Below, piece by piece: positions 175 through 19,111 of a stretch of 32,323 nucleotides of DNA. The translations under genes were made by a program, and so were the position numbers. Numbering within the stretch: position 1 is the stretch's first letter; every line of letters starts with the position of its first letter. Below the pieces are notes generated by a model. The model did no database searches. It was not told where the DNA came from and was given only the letters and a program-made list of their open reading frames with translations. Origin of the DNA: Patescibacteria group bacterium (lineage in GTDB: Bacteria; Patescibacteriota; Minisyncoccia; Minisyncoccales; JANBVM01); NCBI GenBank assembly GCA_024238995.1, contig JANBVL010000008.1, positions 1-32,323 of the forward strand, given 5' to 3'.

Positions 175-1194
175 ATGAATATGATAACTGTATCTAGTCC
201 AGGTAAAATTATTTTGTTTGGGGAGCACGCTGTTGTATATGATAAACTTGGCATTGCTTGCAGTATTGACAAAAGATGTAAGATAAAAGCTTTTCCTTGT
301 CCGGGAAAAGCTGTTTTTATTAAGTCAAGAAATTTAAATTTAACTAAATCCTTGGAGGAAAAAGAGCTGCTTGCTTTATATGAAAATATCAACAGCCTCA
401 TAAAAGAAAAAAGCTTTGATAAAATAAAGGAAATCTATAAAAACAATGAGCTTATTCCAAGCTTTTTTGTTCTTGCCAACATTTTTAAAAAACACGGTTT
501 TAAACCACTAGATATTGAAATTGATTCTGAAGTGCCTAAAAACTTGGGTTCAAGCTCAGCTGTTTTTTCAGCCATTAGCTTGGGAGCGTTAAAGTGCTTA
601 ACAGAGAATTTCTCTAAAAAAGATGTTTCTGATTTTGCTTATTGTGGCGACGTTATAGCCCATGGCGGCACTCCTTCTGGCATTGACAACAATGCTGTTG
701 CTTTTGGTGGTTACGTAAAATATAGAAAATCAGAAGGCATCAATCCTTTGGCAATTGATTTTAAGATTCCTTTATTGATTGTAGACAGTGGCGAAAAATC
801 AAAAACATCAAGAACGGTTTCTTATGTAAGAGAACAAGCAGAGGAAAATCCTGAATTTGTTGGTTCTGTTTTAGATTCTCTGGACAACATTTCTAAAAAA
901 GCTTTAAAGGTTCTGGACTTGCAGGATTTAAATGCTTTCGGTGGGTTAATGACAGAATATTATGAAGAATTAAAGAAACTAAACATTTCAACTCCAAAGC
1001 TGGATAAAATAGTTGAGATTGCCTTAAAGCACAATGCTTTGGGAGTTAAGCCAACCGGAGCCTGGGGCGGAGGTTGCTGTTTAGCCTTAATGAGAAACCA
1101 AGAAGACATATTTAAGTTAAAAGAGATTTTTGCACAAAATGGCTTCAAGTCTTTTCAGGCAAAAATTGGAGTAAAAGGAGTTAAAACTATATGA
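175..1194 (+). CDS. mvk: Mevalonate kinase (GHMP family)
   Basis: Cytosolic enzyme expected to phosphorylate mevalonate to 5-phosphomevalonate with ATP. All three GHMP motifs are visible in 339 residues: N-terminal SPGKIILFGEHAVVYD (8-23), the phosphate-binding loop PKNLGSSSA (121-129), and C-terminal KPTGAWGGGC (292-301). The segment HGGTPSGIDNN (163-173) carries the catalytic Asp171 in the form typical of mevalonate kinases, which is why I assign this gene rather than the other GHMP gene to the first step. One oddity is Trp297 where the third motif normally has glycine. An alternative ATG lies two codons in, at 181; neither start has a clear Shine-Dalgarno sequence. The stop overlaps the mvaD start as ATGA, indicating translational coupling. 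Substrate specificity is inferred from motifs only. Confidence 0.85.
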   Translation: MNMITVSSPGKIILFGEHAVVYDKLGIACSIDKRCKIKAFPCPGKAVFIKSRNLNLTKSLEEKELLALYENINSLIKEKSFDKIKEIYKNNELIPSFFVLANIFKKHGFKPLDIEIDSEVPKNLGSSSAVFSAISLGALKCLTENFSKKDVSDFAYCGDVIAHGGTPSGIDNNAVAFGGYVKYRKSEGINPLAIDFKIPLLIVDSGEKSKTSRTVSYVREQAEENPEFVGSVLDSLDNISKKALKVLDLQDLNAFGGLMTEYYEELKKLNISTPKLDKIVEIALKHNALGVKPTGAWGGGCCLALMRNQEDIFKLKEIFAQNGFKSFQAKIGVKGVKTI

Positions 1195-2180
1195 AAGCAA
1201 CTGCAATTGCTAATGTCAACATTGCTCTAGTTAAATATTGGGGAAAACGAGACAAAAAACTGTTTTTGCCAAACAACAGTTCTATGTCTTTAACTTTAGA
1301 CAGTCTTAACACAACTACTACAGTTGAATTCGGCAACTATGAAAATGACACTTTCATTTTAGACGGAAAAGAAATTCAGGGAAAAGAACTGGAAAAAGTG
1401 ACAAGACATGTGGAATTAATTAGAAAAGTGTCTGGAATTCAAAAAAAAGCAAAGATTGTCAGCAAAAATAACTTTCCTACGGCAGCAGGACTGGCTAGCT
1501 CAGCGTCAGGCTTTGCTGCACTGACTTTGGCTGCAACAAAAGCAGCTGGATTGGATTTGAATCCAAAAGAATTATCAATCATTTCCCGTCAGGGTAGTGG
1601 TTCGTCAACAAGAAGTTGTGTGGGTGGATTTGTTGAGTGGTTAAAAGGGAATAAAGATGATGGAACTGATAGTTATGCAAAACAGGTTGCTTCACCGGAG
1701 TATTGGTCAGAGTTCCGGATGATTATAACAATTGTTTCAACAGAAGTTAAAAAAGTATCCAGTCGTGCAGGCATGGCTCAAACAGTTGAAACTTCACTAA
1801 TGTATCCTGTTTGGCTTGATACGGTTGAAAAGGATTTAGAAAGTATGAGAAAAGGGATTCTGAATAAAGATTTTACGCTTGTTGGAACTACTGCTGAATC
1901 TAGTTGTTTAAAAATGCATGCAACAATGACTACAACTCAACCTTCAATAATTTACTGGATGCCAGCAACCTTAGAGATAATTCATGCAGTTAAGTCTTGG
2001 AGAGAAAATGGGTTTGAAACCTATTTTACAATTGACGCAGGGCCGCAGGTTAAAATTATTGCTTTGGAAAATCAGGTTTCAGAGATTAAAAAGAAACTAC
2101 AGGACCTTAGTGGCGTAAAGGACGTTATTGTCTGCAAGCCTGGTCAGGGCTCAGAATTAATTGAAAACCATTTATTTTAA
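1191..2180 (+). CDS. mvaD: Diphosphomevalonate decarboxylase
   Basis: Catalyses ATP-dependent decarboxylation of 5-diphosphomevalonate to isopentenyl diphosphate, the last step of the classical mevalonate route. The 329-residue protein has the family's usual length and motifs: ANVNIALVKYWGKRD at 7-21, the ATP loop PTAAGLASSASGFAAL at 96-111, SRQGSGSSTRS at 132-142 with the conserved Arg141, KMHATMTTTQPS at 241-252, and TIDAGPQVK at 280-288 with the catalytic Asp282. It overlaps the upstream kinase by four bases, and its TAA is immediately followed by the ATG of the next GHMP kinase, so the three genes behave as one translational unit. The presence of this enzyme argues for the phosphomevalonate kinase branch rather than the archaeal isopentenyl-phosphate branch, so a phosphomevalonate kinase should also be encoded; the next gene is the candidate. 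Confidence 0.95.
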   Translation: MKATAIANVNIALVKYWGKRDKKLFLPNNSSMSLTLDSLNTTTTVEFGNYENDTFILDGKEIQGKELEKVTRHVELIRKVSGIQKKAKIVSKNNFPTAAGLASSASGFAALTLAATKAAGLDLNPKELSIISRQGSGSSTRSCVGGFVEWLKGNKDDGTDSYAKQVASPEYWSEFRMIITIVSTEVKKVSSRAGMAQTVETSLMYPVWLDTVEKDLESMRKGILNKDFTLVGTTAESSCLKMHATMTTTQPSIIYWMPATLEIIHAVKSWRENGFETYFTIDAGPQVKIIALENQVSEIKKKLQDLSGVKDVIVCKPGQGSELIENHLF

Positions 2181-3137
2181 ATGATTAAAGCTTCTGCTCC
2201 TGGAAAATTAATATTATTTGGTGAACACGCTGTTGTTTATGATAGGCCATGTATTGTGGCTTCTGTTGAGCATAGAATTAGTGTTTCTTTGAAAAAAAGA
2301 AATGACAATAACATTTTCTTAACTGCGCCTGATTTAAATTTTAAAAATCAGGACATTTCCTCTTTGGAAAAATCTCACTTTAAAAAATCGAGTTTTATTC
2401 TAGCTGCTATAAGGAACTTTTTTAAAAAATATGATGTAAAATTTGGTTTAGATATTAAAACTCAAAGCGAATTTTCAGATAAGATCGGCTTAGGAAGTTC
2501 TTCTGCTGTTGTTGTTTCAGCTATTAAGGGTTTGTCAGAGTTATTTAAGATAAAGATGAATGAAAAAGATATTTTTGATCTTTCCTATCAAACAGTTTTA
2601 GATGTTCAGGGTTTGGGTTCTGGTTTTGACGTGGCAGCTGCAGTTTATGGAGGGATATTATTCTTTGTTACAGGTGGAAAGATTATAAAACCAATCGAAA
2701 TTACAGACATGCCATTGGTTGTTGGTTATACTGGCGTTAAGGCAGATACGCCTACCTTGGTTAAAATGGTAGGTGAAAAATTATTAAAAGAACCTGAAAG
2801 GATCAATGGGATTTTTAATGAGATTGAAAATATAGTTAATTTGGCAAAGGTTGAAATAGAAAATAAAGATTGGAAGAAAGTAGGACATCTTATGAATTTA
2901 AATCAGGATTTATTAAGAAAGCTTGGGGTAAGTTCTAAAAAACTTGAAAGTTTAATAAAAGTAGCGCTTGATTCTGGAGCTTATGGCGCTAAATTGTCAG
3001 GAGCTGGTGGAGGAGATTGCATGATTGTCCTATCTGATAGAGAGAATTTGAATAGTATAAAAAAAGCGATAGAAAAAGCTGGAGGAGTTATTATTGAGAC
3101 AAAGATTCCAGCTGAGGGGGTTAGGACGCTATCTTGA
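2181..3137 (+). CDS. GHMP kinase, probable phosphomevalonate kinase (or second mevalonate kinase)
   Basis: A second GHMP kinase of 318 residues placed directly after mvaD. Visible motifs are APGKLILFGEHAVVYDRP (6-23), KIGLGSSSAV (101-110) and KLSGAGGGDC (271-280). The middle segment reads GLGSGFDVAAAVYGG (144-158), which resembles the phosphomevalonate kinase pattern (GSGFDVA) rather than the PSGIDN pattern of mevalonate kinases. By contrast, GEHAVVYD and VGYTGVKADTPTLVK (181-195) resemble archaeal-type mevalonate kinases. Since the pathway to IPP through mvaD needs both kinases and the first gene of this cluster looks like a mevalonate kinase, I infer the phosphomevalonate step here, but database annotation may well call both genes mevalonate kinase. 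The TGA stop doubles as part of the -35 box of the next promoter. Confidence 0.75.
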   Translation: MIKASAPGKLILFGEHAVVYDRPCIVASVEHRISVSLKKRNDNNIFLTAPDLNFKNQDISSLEKSHFKKSSFILAAIRNFFKKYDVKFGLDIKTQSEFSDKIGLGSSSAVVVSAIKGLSELFKIKMNEKDIFDLSYQTVLDVQGLGSGFDVAAAVYGGILFFVTGGKIIKPIEITDMPLVVGYTGVKADTPTLVKMVGEKLLKEPERINGIFNEIENIVNLAKVEIENKDWKKVGHLMNLNQDLLRKLGVSSKKLESLIKVALDSGAYGAKLSGAGGGDCMIVLSDRENLNSIKKAIEKAGGVIIETKIPAEGVRTLS

Positions 3138-11587: not shown

Positions 11588-11593
11588 ACTTTG

Positions 11594-11602
11594 ATTTTAA
11601 CA
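11594..11602 (-). promoter_or_regulatory. Extended -10 promoter of the smpB-ssrA-infC operon
   Basis: TGTTAAAAT on the minus strand fits an extended -10 (TGn followed by TAAAAT, 11599-11594). Six bases (CAAAGT) separate it from the smpB ATG. No good -35 box is seen, which is acceptable for an extended -10 promoter. Confidence 0.5.
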
Positions 11603-11626
11603 GAAAAATCAGATAACCTTAAATTA

Positions 11627-12811
11627 ATGAATAACAAGAAAAGTAGCAGAATTCCTGGTTTTTTCAAACTAAATAGTAATGAAAAATTAAAGATTGTTCA
11701 AGAATTTACTGATTTAACTGACAAGGAGCTGGAAATCATTAAAAAAGGATTTTTAGATTCAGACACAAGAGACAAGATGTCCGAAAACGTTATTGGCACT
11801 TATTCTTTGCCCTATTCAATTGCTGTTAATTTTTTAATAAATGACAGAGATTATCTTGTGCCAATGGTCACTGAAGAGCCCTCTGTAGTTGCCGCAGCTT
11901 GCTATGGGGCAAAGCTTTTAAGAGATAATGGAGGGATTAAAGCTGAAAGTCTAGAAAATCTAATGATAGGACAGATTTATTTAACTGATATAAGCAGTAT
12001 TGAAAAAGCTAGTCAAGATATTTTAAAAAATAAAAAAGAAATAATAGAACTTGGTAATTCTAGAAAATCTGATTTATTAAGTTTAGGAGGCGGTGTCAGA
12101 GATTTAGAAATAAAAGTTTTTAAAAATACAAATATTGGAGATTTTTTAAGAATTCATTTGTTTATAGATACAAAAGATGCAATGGGAGCAAATACTATTA
12201 ATACAATAGTTGAAGTTGTGGCTCCTTTACTTGAAAAAATTACTGATTCAAAAGCGCTTTTAAAAATTGTTTCCAATCTGGCTGACAAAAGACTTGCCAA
12301 AGCCAAAGGGATTGTTAAAAAAGAATCTTTAATAACAAAAGATTTTAAAGGAGAGGAAGTGATTGAAAACATTGTCAAAGCTCAAGCTATTGCTGAAAAT
12401 GATATTTATAGGGCTGTAACAAATAACAAAGGTATTTTAAACGGAATGGGAGCAGTGACATTGGCTACTGGAAATGACTGGAGAGCACTTGAGGCAGGAG
12501 CACATGGTTATGCAGCAAGCTCAGAAAGATATATGCCTTTAGTCAAATGGAATAAAGATGAAAATAATGATTTAGTTGGTGAAATAATAGTTCCAATAGC
12601 AGTAGGTGTTGTGGGTGGAGTAATCCAATCTCATCCAGTAAGCAAGCTGTCTTTAAAAATTTTAAACATTAAAACAGCTTCAGAATTAGCTTGCGTCATA
12701 GCTTCTGTTGGCCTGTCTCAGAATCTGGCAGCTTTAAGAGCTTTAGTCTCTGAGGGGATTCAAGAAGGTCATATGAGGCTTCATGCTAAACTAATGGAAA
12801 AAGATGATTAA
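11627..12811 (+). CDS. mvaA: Hydroxymethylglutaryl-CoA reductase, class II
   Basis: Reduces HMG-CoA to mevalonate with NAD(P)H, the committed step feeding the kinases at the left of the window. From ATG 11627 the protein has 394 residues and begins with the class II hallmark SRIPGFFKLNSNEKL (7-21). Catalytic residues are placed as in the Pseudomonas mevalonii enzyme, shifted by one: Glu84 in TEEPSVVAAA, Lys268 in NNKGILNG, Asp284 in TGNDWRA and His382 in EGHMRLH. DAMGANTINT (184-193) is the cofactor-binding segment. The frame is open back to a TTG at 11591, but those 12 residues lie in the divergent promoter region and are not conserved, so the ATG is preferred. It overlaps argS by eight bases. 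Direction (biosynthetic) is inferred from the kinases and decarboxylase nearby. Confidence 0.95.
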   Translation: MNNKKSSRIPGFFKLNSNEKLKIVQEFTDLTDKELEIIKKGFLDSDTRDKMSENVIGTYSLPYSIAVNFLINDRDYLVPMVTEEPSVVAAACYGAKLLRDNGGIKAESLENLMIGQIYLTDISSIEKASQDILKNKKEIIELGNSRKSDLLSLGGGVRDLEIKVFKNTNIGDFLRIHLFIDTKDAMGANTINTIVEVVAPLLEKITDSKALLKIVSNLADKRLAKAKGIVKKESLITKDFKGEEVIENIVKAQAIAENDIYRAVTNNKGILNGMGAVTLATGNDWRALEAGAHGYAASSERYMPLVKWNKDENNDLVGEIIVPIAVGVVGGVIQSHPVSKLSLKILNIKTASELACVIASVGLSQNLAALRALVSEGIQEGHMRLHAKLMEKDD

Positions 12812-14390
12812 ACAAAAAATTAAGGATTTAATAAAGGATTCGATTAAGAAACTTCAAAAAAGTAAAGAGTTCGCCGGTTTTGATGTTGGGGAAATTAAAG
12901 TTGAGATTCCTGAAAAAGAAATCCATGGTGATTATTCAACTAATATTGCAATGATAATTGCAAAAAAAACAAACAAAAATCCAATAGAAACAGCAGAATT
13001 ATTGACTGAAAATTTTAAGACTGAAATATCAAATTTGTTTGAAAGAATTAAAATAGTAAAACCAGGCTTTATTAATTTTTTTATTTCAGAGAAGTATTTA
13101 CAAGATCAAATCAAAGAAATTTTAAAGAAAAAAGAAAAGTTTGGACAGCTTAACATTGGAAAAAACAAAAAAATTCAGGTTGAGTTTATTTCTGCCAATC
13201 CAACAGGGCCTTTAACTTTAGGTAATGCTAGAGGCGGAGCAGTTGGTGATGTTTTGGCTAATGTTTTGAAAAAAGCAGGCTATAAAACAGAAAAAGCATA
13301 TTATATTAATGATTATGGGATGCAGATTTTAACTTTAGGACATTCGGTTTTAAAAGATGATAAAGCTCAGTATAAAGGAGATTACATTGATTATTTGAAT
13401 AAAAAAAATAAAAGCAAAGATCCTTATAAAGTGGGAGAAAAGGCGGCCAAGATTATTGTTAAGGAAATGATCAAGAAGACTACTGACAATTTTGGCATTA
13501 AATATGATGAGTGGACTTCAGAAACAAGCTTTTATAAATCTAAAGCAGTTGATAAGGTTTTGGAAAGATTAAAGAAAAAAGGATTAATTTATGAAAAAGA
13601 AGGCGCTTTATGGTTTAAGTCTAAAAAGTTTGGCGATCAAAGAGACAGAGTTGTTGTTAAAGAAGATGGGTGGAAAACATATTTAGCTGGAGACATAGCT
13701 TATCATGAATATAAATTTAATAAAAAAAAGTTTGATAAAGTAATTAATGTTTGGGGTGCTGATCATTTTGGGGATATTCTTGGTCTTCAAGCAGCAGTTG
13801 AAGCTATTGGTCATAAAGGCAAGCTTGATATTATTATTCTTCAATTTGTTACTCTTTTTGAGAAAGGAAAACAATTGAAAATGTCAAAAAGAAAAGGAAC
13901 TTATGTTACTGTTGATGAATTATTAGAAGAGGTTGGTAAAGATGTGGCAAGATTCTTTTTCTTAAACAAATCATCAGATACTCATTTGAATTTTGATTTA
14001 GAATTAGCAAAAGAACAGTCACAAAAAAATCCAGTTTATTATGTACAATATGCTTATGCCAGAATTTGCAGTATTTTGAAAAAAGTAAAAGCAAGTGAAG
14101 TGAAACTTGATTATTCTTTACTAAAACACGACTCTGAGATTTCCTTAATAAAACAACTTCTCAAATTCCCAGAGATTATTGAAGATATTAGTAAAGATTA
14201 TCAGGTTCAGAAGTTGCCTCAATATACAATTGATTTAGCAGTAATATTTCACAGATTTTATCATGACTGTAAAGTTTTGACTGAAGATGAAGTTTTACAA
14301 AAAGCAAGGTTGAATTTAGTTTTAGCTACAAAAAACGTATTTAAGAATACATTTGATCTAATGGGGATTTCAGCGCCTGAGAAGATGTAA
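12804..14390 (+). CDS. argS: Arginyl-tRNA synthetase
   Basis: Class Ia synthetase of 528 residues that charges tRNA-Arg. The N-terminal additional domain (about 1-115) contains the usual IHGDYSTNIAM segment (40-50), the catalytic core starts at FISANPTGPL (128-137), and KMSKRKGTYVTVDELLEE starts at 359. YYVQYAYARICSILKK and the C-terminal helical DALR domain (from about 450) are typical. The HIGH-equivalent reads TLGN (138-141) instead of HIGH/HVGH, so both histidines are replaced. The rest of the active site is well kept, so this is most likely the functional enzyme of this lineage, not a paralogue. It overlaps the end of mvaA by eight bases. No terminator is seen in the 87 bases before ileS. 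Confidence 0.95.
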   Translation: MIKQKIKDLIKDSIKKLQKSKEFAGFDVGEIKVEIPEKEIHGDYSTNIAMIIAKKTNKNPIETAELLTENFKTEISNLFERIKIVKPGFINFFISEKYLQDQIKEILKKKEKFGQLNIGKNKKIQVEFISANPTGPLTLGNARGGAVGDVLANVLKKAGYKTEKAYYINDYGMQILTLGHSVLKDDKAQYKGDYIDYLNKKNKSKDPYKVGEKAAKIIVKEMIKKTTDNFGIKYDEWTSETSFYKSKAVDKVLERLKKKGLIYEKEGALWFKSKKFGDQRDRVVVKEDGWKTYLAGDIAYHEYKFNKKKFDKVINVWGADHFGDILGLQAAVEAIGHKGKLDIIILQFVTLFEKGKQLKMSKRKGTYVTVDELLEEVGKDVARFFFLNKSSDTHLNFDLELAKEQSQKNPVYYVQYAYARICSILKKVKASEVKLDYSLLKHDSEISLIKQLLKFPEIIEDISKDYQVQKLPQYTIDLAVIFHRFYHDCKVLTEDEVLQKARLNLVLATKNVFKNTFDLMGISAPEKM

Positions 14391-14477: not shown

Positions 14478-17400
14478 ATGAAGCTGAATTTTCTCAAGAC
14501 AGAAAAGAAAGTTTTAAAGTTTTGGAAAGATAATAATATATTTGAAAAAAGCATAAAACAACGAGTGAAAGCTCGTGATTTTATATTTTATGAAGGCCCT
14601 CCTACTGCTAATGCGCCTCCAGGACTTCATCATGTTTTAGCTAGGGCGTTTAAAGATATAGTTTGTAGGTATAAAACAATGAGGGGTTTTAGGGTGATAA
14701 GAAAAGGTGGTTGGGATACACATGGTCTTCCTGTTGAACTTCAGATTGAAAAAAAGCTTGATTTAAAATCAAAAAAGGATATTGAAAACTATGGAATTTC
14801 TAAATTTAATAAAAAATGTAAAACTTCTGTTTGGAATTTTACAAAGGCCTGGGTGGATTTAACAGAGAAAATGGGTTATTGGATAGATATTAATAATCCA
14901 TACATTACATATAATCCTGAATATGTTGAATCTGTTTGGTGGATTTTAAAACAAATCTGGAATAAAGGACTTTTAAAACAAGATTTTAAAGTTGTTCCTT
15001 ATTGTCCTAGATGTGGAACTCCTTTATCTAGCCATGAAGTTGCCGATGGTTATAAGAAAATAAAAGAACCATCTGTTTTTGTTAAATTTAAAATTATTAG
15101 CCCTAATTTTAAAAATACCTCTCTTTTAGTCTGGACAACAACCCCATGGACATTACCTGGCAATGTTGCTGTTGCCTTAAATCCTAAATTTACTTATTCC
15201 AAAATTAAAGTTAATAATGAATTTTTAATATTAGCCAAAGAAAGAATAAAAAAACTTGGAATTGAAGGTGAAATTACTGGTAATTTTAAAGGAAAAGAGC
15301 TTTTGAATTTAAGATATCAAGCTCTTTATCCAGCTGAAGATGAGGTTTTAAGAAATGCTTATAAAATAATAGGTGGGAATTTTGTAACTTTAGATGAAGG
15401 GACCGGCCTGGTTCATATTGCTCCAGCTTATGGTGTAGATGATATGGAGGTTGCTAAGAAAAATAAACTGCCAGTTTTGTTAAACATTGATGAAGAAGGA
15501 AAGTTCAGATTAAATGTTGAAAAATGGGCAAGAATGTATTTTAAAGATGCTGACCCTTTAATTATCAAGGATTTAGAAGGCAGAGGGCTATTGTTTAAAC
15601 AGGAAGTTTATGAGCATGATTATCCATTTTGCTGGAGATGTAAAAACCCGCTTCTTTATTACGCAAAAAAAACCTGGTTTATAACAATAACTAAAGTTAA
15701 AAAAGATTTAATTAGCAATAATGAAAAGATTAATTGGCATCCTGCGTATTTGAAAAAAGGGAGATTTGGGAATTGGTTGAAAGAAGTAAGAGACTGGGCT
15801 ATTGCTAGAGATAGATATTGGGGGACACCTCTTCCTGTTTGGGAATGTAAAAACTGCAAGCACACTGAAATGATTGGAGGCGTGAATGATATTGTAAAGC
15901 AGAAATTTGACACTAATCGTTATTTTCTTCTTCGCCATGGTCAATCTTTACGACAGACCAAAGAAAAAAACCTGTCAATGTGCTGGCCTGAAAAAATACA
16001 TTGCCCTTTAACTGATAAAGGGAAAGAAGAGGCTTTAAAAACAGCCAAGCAGTTGGCAAAAGATGGTATTGATCTAATCTTTTCTTCTGATTTGCTGCGA
16101 ACAAAACAAACTGCTGAGATCGTAGGGCAGGAGCTGAAAATTCCTGTTAAGTTCAGTAAAAAGATAAGGGAATTTGATGTCGGCACATTTAATGGAAAAG
16201 AAGCAAGGTTGTCCTGGGAATATCGGAAGGAAAAAGGAGACCTTATAGGAACGAGACTTCCAGGCGGTGAAAGTTATATTGATGTTAGAAAAAGAGTTTA
16301 TAAGTTCATTAAAGAAATAAATAACAAGTATAAAGATAAAAATATATTAATTATTTCTCATGAATCACCTTTAACTGTTCTTGAAAAAACTTTAAAAGGT
16401 TGGCCTTTGGAAAAGATTGTGGATTGGAGGTGGAAAAAAAGAAAAGATCTTATTAAAACTGGTCAATGGCGCGAGGTTAAGTTTGCTGACCTTCCTTACA
16501 ATAAAAAAATGCAGCTTGATCTTCATCGTCCATTTATTGATAAAATCAAATTTCATTGTTCTGGGTGTAATACTCTTATGGAGAGAGTGCCTGAGGTTAT
16601 TGACTGCTGGTTTGACTCAGGAGCAATGCCTTTTGCCCAGTATCATTATCCTTTTGAGAATAAGAGTTTAATTGATGATAATAAGCAGTTTCCAGCTGAT
16701 TATATTTGCGAGGCAATAGACCAGACAAGGGGTTGGTTTTATACTTTGCTGGCAATTTCAACTTTACTTGGCAAAGGGCCAGCATATAAAAATGTTATTT
16801 CTTTAGGTCATCTTTTAGATGAAAAAGGAGAAAAAATGTCCAAGTCAAAGGGAAATATTATTGATCCCTGGTATATCTTTGAAAAATATTCAGCTGATGC
16901 TGTTAGGTGGAGTTTTTACACTATTAATCAGCCAGGTGACCCAAAGCTTTTCTCAGAAAAAGATCCTGAAAAGTCTTTGAGAAAATTCATACTTCCTTTG
17001 TGGAATTCATATGTTTTTCTAAAAACTTATAGCAATAGTCAGTTTTTTACAACTAAAAAACCAGTTTCAAACAATATATTGGATAAGTGGATTATTTCTA
17101 AGCTTGATGAATTGATTTTAAATGCCACAAAATCTTTGGAAAATTATGATATCACTAGTGCCTCCAGAAATATTGAAAAGTTTTTAATGAGTGAAGTGTC
17201 TCTTTGGTATATTAGAAGGTCTCGTAAAAGATTTCAGCAGCCTGAAAGTAATTTAGAGCTGAAGCAGGCATCTCAGACTTTGAGTTTTGTGATTTTTCAA
17301 ATTTTAAAATTATCTTCTCCTTTTATTCCTTTTTTAGCAGAACATATTTATCAGGATTTTAAAAAATCAGGATTAAAAGCAAAACTATCTGTTCATTTAG

Positions 17401-17931: not shown

Positions 17932-18384
17932 ATGGAAAATAAAGGACAACAATTTGGACGAAGAATGTGGGGAGAAGGATCGCAAAGGCCATCTAGTTTT
18001 GAAAGAAAATATTCAGTGCCTACAAAATCAATAAAATCAGAAATCGAAAAAATGAAGATTAAGAAAACAGGGACTAAGGAAGCGGGAAAATCCTCTGAAC
18101 AAGCATTTTGGAATCGTTTTGGTTCTGCGAAAAAAGAAGGAATTTTACAAAAATTCAAAGGAGGTAAACTTTTTGGACAAACAGGTATTCCAGAAGCCGA
18201 GAGGCTTAAATATGCCGATAAAATATTCAAACTTGGCACTGGTTATGGCAGCAAAGAGAGTTTAAAAAAGGAAATAATGATTTTAAGAGGAAAAGCTACT
18301 TCTGGCAAAACCGAAATGGAGCAGAAACAGGCAAGAAAACATTTGAACTTGTTGGAAAAGGTATTTGGAAAAGATATAAAATAG
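17932..18384 (+). CDS. Hypothetical basic protein, 150 residues
   Basis: I do not recognise this family. The protein is hydrophilic and lysine-rich, has no signal peptide or membrane segment, and is largely predicted as charged helices in its second half (ERLKYADKIFKLGTGYG, then a Lys/Glu-rich helix ending LNLLEKVFGKDIK). The N-terminal 60 residues look flexible (Gly, Ser, Arg, Lys). It begins seven bases after ileS and ends one base before recO, and it has normal codon use, so it is a real gene in this operon. A nucleic-acid-associated role is possible from its charge and neighbours but is speculation. Confidence 0.7.
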   Translation: MENKGQQFGRRMWGEGSQRPSSFERKYSVPTKSIKSEIEKMKIKKTGTKEAGKSSEQAFWNRFGSAKKEGILQKFKGGKLFGQTGIPEAERLKYADKIFKLGTGYGSKESLKKEIMILRGKATSGKTEMEQKQARKHLNLLEKVFGKDIK

Positions 18385-18385
18385 G

Positions 18386-19111
18386 ATGTTTGTTCATTAT
18401 AGGACCAAAGGTTTTATTTTTAAAAAAGTTGACAGAAGTGAAGCTGATCAGTTGTTTAGTATTTTTACAAAGGATTTTGGAGGATTAAAAGTATTAGGAA
18501 AAGGAATAAGGAAAACAACTTCAAAATTAAGGGCAGGTATAGACATTTTCTATTTATCAGAAATTGAATTTATCCAAGGCAAGGGGCATAAAACCTTAAC
18601 AGATGCAATAAAAATAAATAATTTCGAGTACATTAGAAAAGATTTAGACAGACTTGAAGTTGCCTATAAAATAGAGCAATCCTTAGATGATCTGATAAAA
18701 GGAGAGGAAAAGGATGATAATGTCTGGAATTTATTGTTAGAGGTTTTTGAAAAATTAAATGATTTGAATTTTAAAAACATAGATTTACTTTATTATTATT
18801 TTTTTTGGAATTTTTTATCTTTACTGGGTTATCAATTAAATGTACATAATTGCTCAAACTGTGAGGAAAAACTAAAGCCTGAACAACTTTATTTTGATTT
18901 GAAAAAATCAGGTATAATGTGCGGGAATTGTATTGATAAAGATTCTGTTAAAAAAATAGTTCCAGAAATAGTTAAAATTTTAAGAATTATTTTAAAAAGA
19001 GATATAAAAATAATATCTAAGTTAATTACTAAAGACAAGCACATTAAGTCTTTAAGCGAGATTTCTAAAAACTATTATTCGTTTGTGCTAAATTTAAGCG
19101 GACAAGCATGA
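18386..19111 (+). CDS. recO: DNA repair protein RecO
   Basis: RecO anneals strands and helps load RecA at single-stranded gaps together with RecR. The 241-residue protein starts with the OB-fold domain (HYRTKGFIFKKVDRSEADQL, DFGGLKVLGKGIRKTTSKL), followed by the helical domain, where the zinc-binding set NCSNCEEKL ... MCGNC (about 152-179) is clear. ATG 18386 gives the family's usual N-terminus and lies one base after the upstream stop. The 3' end overlaps the next start as ATGA. Sequence identity to well-known RecO proteins appears low, but motif order and length fit. Confidence 0.88.
   Translation: MFVHYRTKGFIFKKVDRSEADQLFSIFTKDFGGLKVLGKGIRKTTSKLRAGIDIFYLSEIEFIQGKGHKTLTDAIKINNFEYIRKDLDRLEVAYKIEQSLDDLIKGEEKDDNVWNLLLEVFEKLNDLNFKNIDLLYYYFFWNFLSLLGYQLNVHNCSNCEEKLKPEQLYFDLKKSGIMCGNCIDKDSVKKIVPEIVKILRIILKRDIKIISKLITKDKHIKSLSEISKNYYSFVLNLSGQA

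Follow-up and report, generated by a model that had tools for sequence, protein, structure and literature searches.

Branch-1 histidine phosphatases (HPs), such as PspA, CobC, PhoE, and GpgP (structures 4ij6, 6nru, 1h2e, and 4qih), are domains of about 190 aa with an RHG motif, a second arginine, a second histidine, and an acidic residue. Type-2 bacterial isoleucyl-tRNA synthetases (IleRSs), represented by the T. thermophilus enzyme (1ile) and P. megaterium IleRS2, have an editing domain, zinc sites, a KMSKS motif, and a C-terminal domain (DUF5915). One curated IleRS family bears an additional enzyme domain, a GNAT acetyltransferase (NF040702, ileS_w_GNAT), and in the actinobacterial bifunctional RNase H/acid phosphatase (NF005567) an HP is joined to a nucleic-acid enzyme.

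We analyzed a stretch of 32,323 nucleotides from a Patescibacteria group bacterium (contig JANBVL010000008.1; hereafter, the window), in which an HP is nested in the product of ileS. The HP shares with the solved branch-1 enzymes the fold (Foldseek TM 0.73 to 0.79), the catalytic residues, and the length, but it is only 22 to 26% identical to them, and it alone is nested in a synthetase. The synthetase part shares its architecture and all of the elements listed above with the type-2 enzymes, from which it differs by a GLHH form of the HIGH motif and by the HP in a zinc ribbon, a feature absent from every solved IleRS that was matched. As in ileS_w_GNAT, an IleRS carries an extra enzyme, but the enzyme class differs: NF040702 scores 315.7 bits against the window protein (cut-off, 1999), and the Pfam scan of this protein contains no GNAT domain. 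The RNase H protein is an end-to-end fusion, in contrast to the nested insertion in the window, and its model reaches 78 bits on the HP part, below the cut-off of 326. Among open-access papers, we found no description of an HP in IleRS or in valyl-tRNA synthetase (ValRS). Both parts belong to known families; in this open-access literature, we saw no account of the HP nested in a synthetase, of the interchange between nested HP and upstream gene, or of recurrent HP use in IleRS and ValRS, although the nested architecture itself must already be visible in sequence databases.

An HP domain in the second zinc ribbon of IleRS

The ileS reading frame is single and unbroken (Table 1), and its product is an IleRS by its match to TIGR00392 (896 bits, cut-off 621.4, E=2.6e-269), with predicted charging of tRNA-Ile. 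The top Foldseek structures for the protein are IleRS2 of P. megaterium (8c8v) and 1ile, and these matches place the enzyme in the eukaryote-like type 2. KMSKS is found at residue 786, and both zinc sites, Zn1 and Zn2, have the complete set of cysteines (CCCC). The AlphaFold2 model of the full-length protein is confident in both parts (mean pLDDT 90.8).

Table 1. Features of the ileS locus, in positions of the window
Feature	Position	Strand	Basis
argS, upstream neighbor; in relatives, a separate HP gene falls between argS and ileS	12804..14390	+	
ileS, type-2 IleRS with nested HP domain; 1148 aa	14478..17924	+	profiles, alignment, Foldseek
Class I signature motif, swapped form GLHH (aa 49-52)	14622..14633	+	motif scan
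Zinc ribbon 2, first Cys pair (C457, C460)	15846..15857	+	alignment, motif scan
Whole inserted segment, aa 473-679, instead of ~12 residues in the T. thermophilus loop	15894..16514	+	1ile alignment
HP domain, aa 478-668 (Pfam core 483-651)	15909..16481	+	Pfam, NCBIfam, AlphaFold2, Foldseek
R486-H487 of the RHG motif: phosphate pocket and predicted phospho-accepting His	15933..15938	+	invariant in 102/102 inserted HPs
R541, second pocket Arg	16098..16100	+	invariant in 102/102
E565, position of the expected general acid	16170..16172	+	Glu in 81, Asp in 21 of 102
H628, second pocket His	16359..16361	+	invariant in 102/102
Zinc ribbon 2, second Cys pair (C694, C697)	16557..16568	+	alignment, motif scan
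150-aa ORF between ileS and recO, no Pfam match	17932..18384	+	
recO, which closes the conserved argS-[HP]-ileS-recO order downstream	18386..19111	+	

Alignment to 1ile covers residues 4-472 and 680-1010 and leaves about 200 extra residues between C457/C460 and C694/C697, that is, inside the second zinc ribbon. Within them, residues 483-651 match His_Phos_1 (PF00300) with an E value of 1.4e-34 and 119.9 bits (gathering score, 21.7), far above chance expectation. A preliminary description of this DNA had claimed a complete HP domain in one frame between the two cysteine pairs of IleRS and had proposed a Pfam search and a structure prediction as checks; the domain, its coordinates, and its residues proved right. 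R486-H487-G488, R541, E565, and H628 all lie where HP family members have them. Modeled alone, the domain has a compact and confidently predicted HP fold (mean pLDDT 95.2) that matches solved HPs at Foldseek TM 0.7 to 0.8, among them the small-metabolite enzymes PspA (phosphoserine phosphatase), GpgP (glucosyl-3-phosphoglycerate phosphatase), and CobC (alpha-ribazole phosphatase), as well as PhoE. By profile and by model, the insert is an intact branch-1 HP. An assembly or frame artifact is ruled out by the unbroken frame and because the same architecture occurs in independently assembled relatives (34 of 60) and in records titled complete genomes (AP024682.1 and CP011209.1, our loci L148 and L174).

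Seven residues (R486, H487, S537, R541, E598, R606, and H628) are invariant in all 102 distinct inserted HPs, and the description's statement that the catalytic residues are kept thus extends to the whole set. The inserts evolve faster than the synthetase cores: their identity to the window ranges from 36 to 60%, vs. 42 to 80% for the cores. Because the catalytic set is invariant despite this strong divergence, the simplest reading of the alignments is an apparently working phosphatase under long-term selection for activity. One ValRS copy of the HP (L084) lacks the second histidine. Zinc-ribbon loops are typical places for structural insertions, and the HP could in principle be inert, a structural spacer such as an additional knob that contacts tRNA; neither the conserved catalytic set nor the replacement of the insert by a separate gene is expected of a spacer, however, and we give this reading very little credence. 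Catalytic conservation rejects a degenerate spacer.

Distribution and mobility of the HP module

The HP lies inside IleRS in 34 of 60 related genomes; in another 14, ileS is directly preceded by a same-strand HP gene (gaps of -11 to +49 bp), 11 have neither arrangement, and no ileS was found in one. The preliminary description suspected that related Patescibacteria share the insertion and that it might be lineage-wide. Sharing is confirmed, but the insertion is not strictly lineage-wide, as the HP can also be an upstream gene, unlinked, or absent. Four of the 11 genomes with neither arrangement (G014, G029, G030, and G058) have no His_Phos_1 match at all, and HP activity is therefore dispensable in them.

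In a broader sample of the class, an HP lies inside a frame of at least 700 aa in 82 of 123 genomes. We also collected 134 distinct IleRSs, of which 96 contain between one and three HPs, 26 are accompanied by an upstream HP gene, and 12 have neither; these were gathered via HP or IleRS similarity, and the counts are not population frequencies. Carriers among named records, in a phylum-level search confined to the window's phylum, include Nealsonbacteria, Wildermuthbacteria, Yanofskybacteria, Wolfebacteria, Niyogibacteria, Zambryskibacteria, Nomurabacteria, Moranbacteria, and Uhrbacteria. The nested HP is widespread in the window's part of Patescibacteria, bacteria with tiny genomes. Of 203 records of plasmid IleRS relatives, not one reaches 80% coverage of the query, which is consistent with the absence of the HP there.

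The site in the window is one of at least four IleRS loops in which we saw an HP among the collected sequences. Family f120 (L076, L079, L081, and L099) has two tandem HPs in the same loop as in the window; in one of its members (L081:2059-6444, minus strand), the Cys pairs of zinc ribbon 2 are lost. A 1569-aa IleRS (L083:2176-6885, plus strand) contains three HPs in three separate loops, none of them at the window's site: one directly follows the second Cys pair, one is in the HYPF-PADF loop, and one is in the linker that precedes the anticodon-binding domain. In another IleRS (L086:3138-7415, minus strand), a GNAT acetyltransferase domain occupies one of these three loops and an HP another. 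Five ValRS loci also have an HP (L077, L084, L087, L088, and L089), with one or two copies inserted in L087:2872-6660 and L088:2914-6234 (both minus strand); in L088, the HP is clearly at the site homologous to the window's. All long HP-bearing frames that we fetched encode IleRS or ValRS. Shorter, end-to-end fusions in Patescibacteria join HPs to VTT (L100 and L101), 2-hydroxyacid dehydrogenase (L102), and glycosyltransferase (L107) partners.

The recurrent gene order is argS-[HP]-ileS-(small ORF)-recO. Where the HP is inserted, as in the window, ileS comes straight after argS; among the 26 loci with an upstream HP gene, argS lies at most three genes upstream in 19 and recO at most three genes downstream in 22. 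A few genomes (L156 and L187) retain argS-HP-recO without ileS in the slot, and the adjacency of HP and ileS may therefore partly be inherited old gene order. The small ORF of the window recurs in the ileS-recO interval of several relatives from the same family. Farther upstream are mevalonate-pathway genes (positions 175-3137 and 11591-12811) for two GHMP kinases, a diphosphomevalonate decarboxylase-like protein, and HMG-CoA reductase, the last immediately preceding argS.

In a phylogeny of the IleRS cores, from which the insert was excised (FastTree; individual branches are provisional), the distribution of HPs inside IleRS needs 12 changes, at least 9 of which are forced by well-supported branches. 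In the HP phylogeny, inside and upstream copies are interleaved; its branches are often weak, which leaves uncertain exactly how many moves there were and in which directions. In the window's family, the IleRS cores group at a support of 100, and the six HPs fall into two types (L002 and L003 vs. L004, L005, L009, and L011). Constraining these six HPs to one clade is rejected (AU test, P = 5.9e-5). Because the HPs are not one clade though the cores group together, we conclude that the insert has been swapped inside ileS within this family. The changes on the core tree and, for the window's family, the AU test reject a single ancestral insertion inherited by descent. The HP is a movable module that resides inside IleRS, just upstream of ileS, at an unlinked position, or nowhere.

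Possible function of the nested HP

Every HP equivalog in NCBIfam scores below its cut-off: alpha-ribazole phosphatase CobC (TIGR03162) at 90.7 vs. 162.9 bits, phosphoserine phosphatase PspA (NF045917) at 68.3 vs. 350 bits, and cofactor-dependent phosphoglycerate mutase (TIGR01258) at 36.4 vs. 81.7 bits. Because all of these scores are subthreshold, transfer of a substrate from known HPs is ruled out. The 2,3-BPG-dependent mutases are branch-1 HPs, and weak similarity to GpmB models would agree with a glycolytic role in which the HP supplies phosphoglycerate mutase activity. We nevertheless disfavor such a role, and think it highly improbable, because the genome encodes a PF01676-type enzyme (a 404-aa frame, G000:C3:19377-20564), from a family that we take to be the usual home of the cofactor-independent mutase. 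The domain is also short, its fold is nearest to phosphatases, and its acid position varies between Glu and Asp.

By analogy with the family, we propose that the HP is a catalytically competent phosphatase in which R486, R541, and H628 would hold the phosphate, H487 would become phosphorylated, and E565 would serve as the acid; the likely substrate class is a small phosphomonoester, hydrolyzed through phospho-H487. This self-contained module may have a functional tie to the branched-chain class Ia synthetases, maintained either through co-transcription (argS-HP-ileS-recO) or through placement of the domain within a solvent-exposed IleRS loop, sometimes one of ValRS. Its modular behavior argues against a direct hand-over between HP and synthetase sites: because the HP also occurs as a separate gene, in several loops, in ValRS, and in tandem, channeling between the two active sites is unlikely. 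Since the HP would work without being held in a fixed position toward the synthetase site, its substrate is most likely diffusible, and the HP probably acts close to the synthetase, or in step with it, on a molecule such as a nucleotide by-product or a nucleotide-like inhibitor.

The observed basis of this proposal is the domain, its residues, the fold prediction, the linkage, and the modularity, from which we infer activity, tie, and substrate. As a whole, an active, modular small-molecule phosphatase functionally tied to the branched-chain synthetases appears to us about as probable as all other readings together. Counted against the tie are the 11 of 60 genomes with neither arrangement, the argS-HP-recO loci without ileS, and the HP fusions to unrelated partners. 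The last two of these observations, together with the dispensability of the HP in some relatives, the modular swapping, and the lack of any other His_Phos_1 domain in the window's genome, are what one would expect if a general metabolite phosphatase were carried as a passenger in a tolerant loop of an essential, constitutive IleRS without any link to aminoacylation. This possibility is a serious one, if not our favored one: HPs have converged repeatedly on two synthetases, IleRS and ValRS, using several loops and even multiple copies per protein, which is unexpected of a neutral carrier, and the long frames examined include no other large internal host. We prefer the functional tie because neutral insertion fails to explain the repeated choice of two branched-chain synthetases.

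A third role would be self-protection, with the HP inactivating phosphorylated nucleotide-like inhibitors before they reach the IleRS or ValRS active site. Both hosts are synthetases with similar inhibitor classes, and the L086 IleRS, in which a GNAT domain accompanies the HP in a different loop, would, like the GNAT-bearing IleRS of NCBIfam, suit such a role. To our knowledge, mupirocin is not a phosphate ester, which counts against it; likewise, we found no phosphatase-based resistance of such type and noticed no synthetase-inhibitor gene cluster nearby. The window IleRS has GLHH where HxGH is the usual class I signature, and GXHH-type motifs are common in these enzymes (61 of 134 collected inserted IleRS rows, with HYGH in others); this swap is the reported signature of mupirocin hyper-resistance in IleRS2 (PMC10485003) and speaks for the self-protective role. 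On balance, self-protection as the specific role seems improbable.

Implications for the branched-chain synthetases of Patescibacteria

We tentatively suggest, while judging it rather unlikely in this full form, that the IleRS and ValRS of Patescibacteria recruited an active phosphatase for extra quality control, nucleotide clearing, or self-protection, as an exchangeable cassette that alternates between operon neighbor and several loops of an essential enzyme. If the HP is functional, these bacteria would have a synthetase whose catalytic body houses a second, unrelated enzyme that has stayed active throughout a large clade while repeatedly entering and leaving IleRS, and the zinc-ribbon loops of class Ia synthetases would be landing sites for whole enzymes. 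Even if the HP is a passenger, it is evolutionarily unusual for an essential gene to have an internal domain of 190 residues exchanged again and again. The pairs of relatives with the HP, without it, or with it as a separate gene form a natural set for testing HP function, and the frequent position of the HP next to ileS where it is absent from IleRS points to an undescribed partnership between the two.
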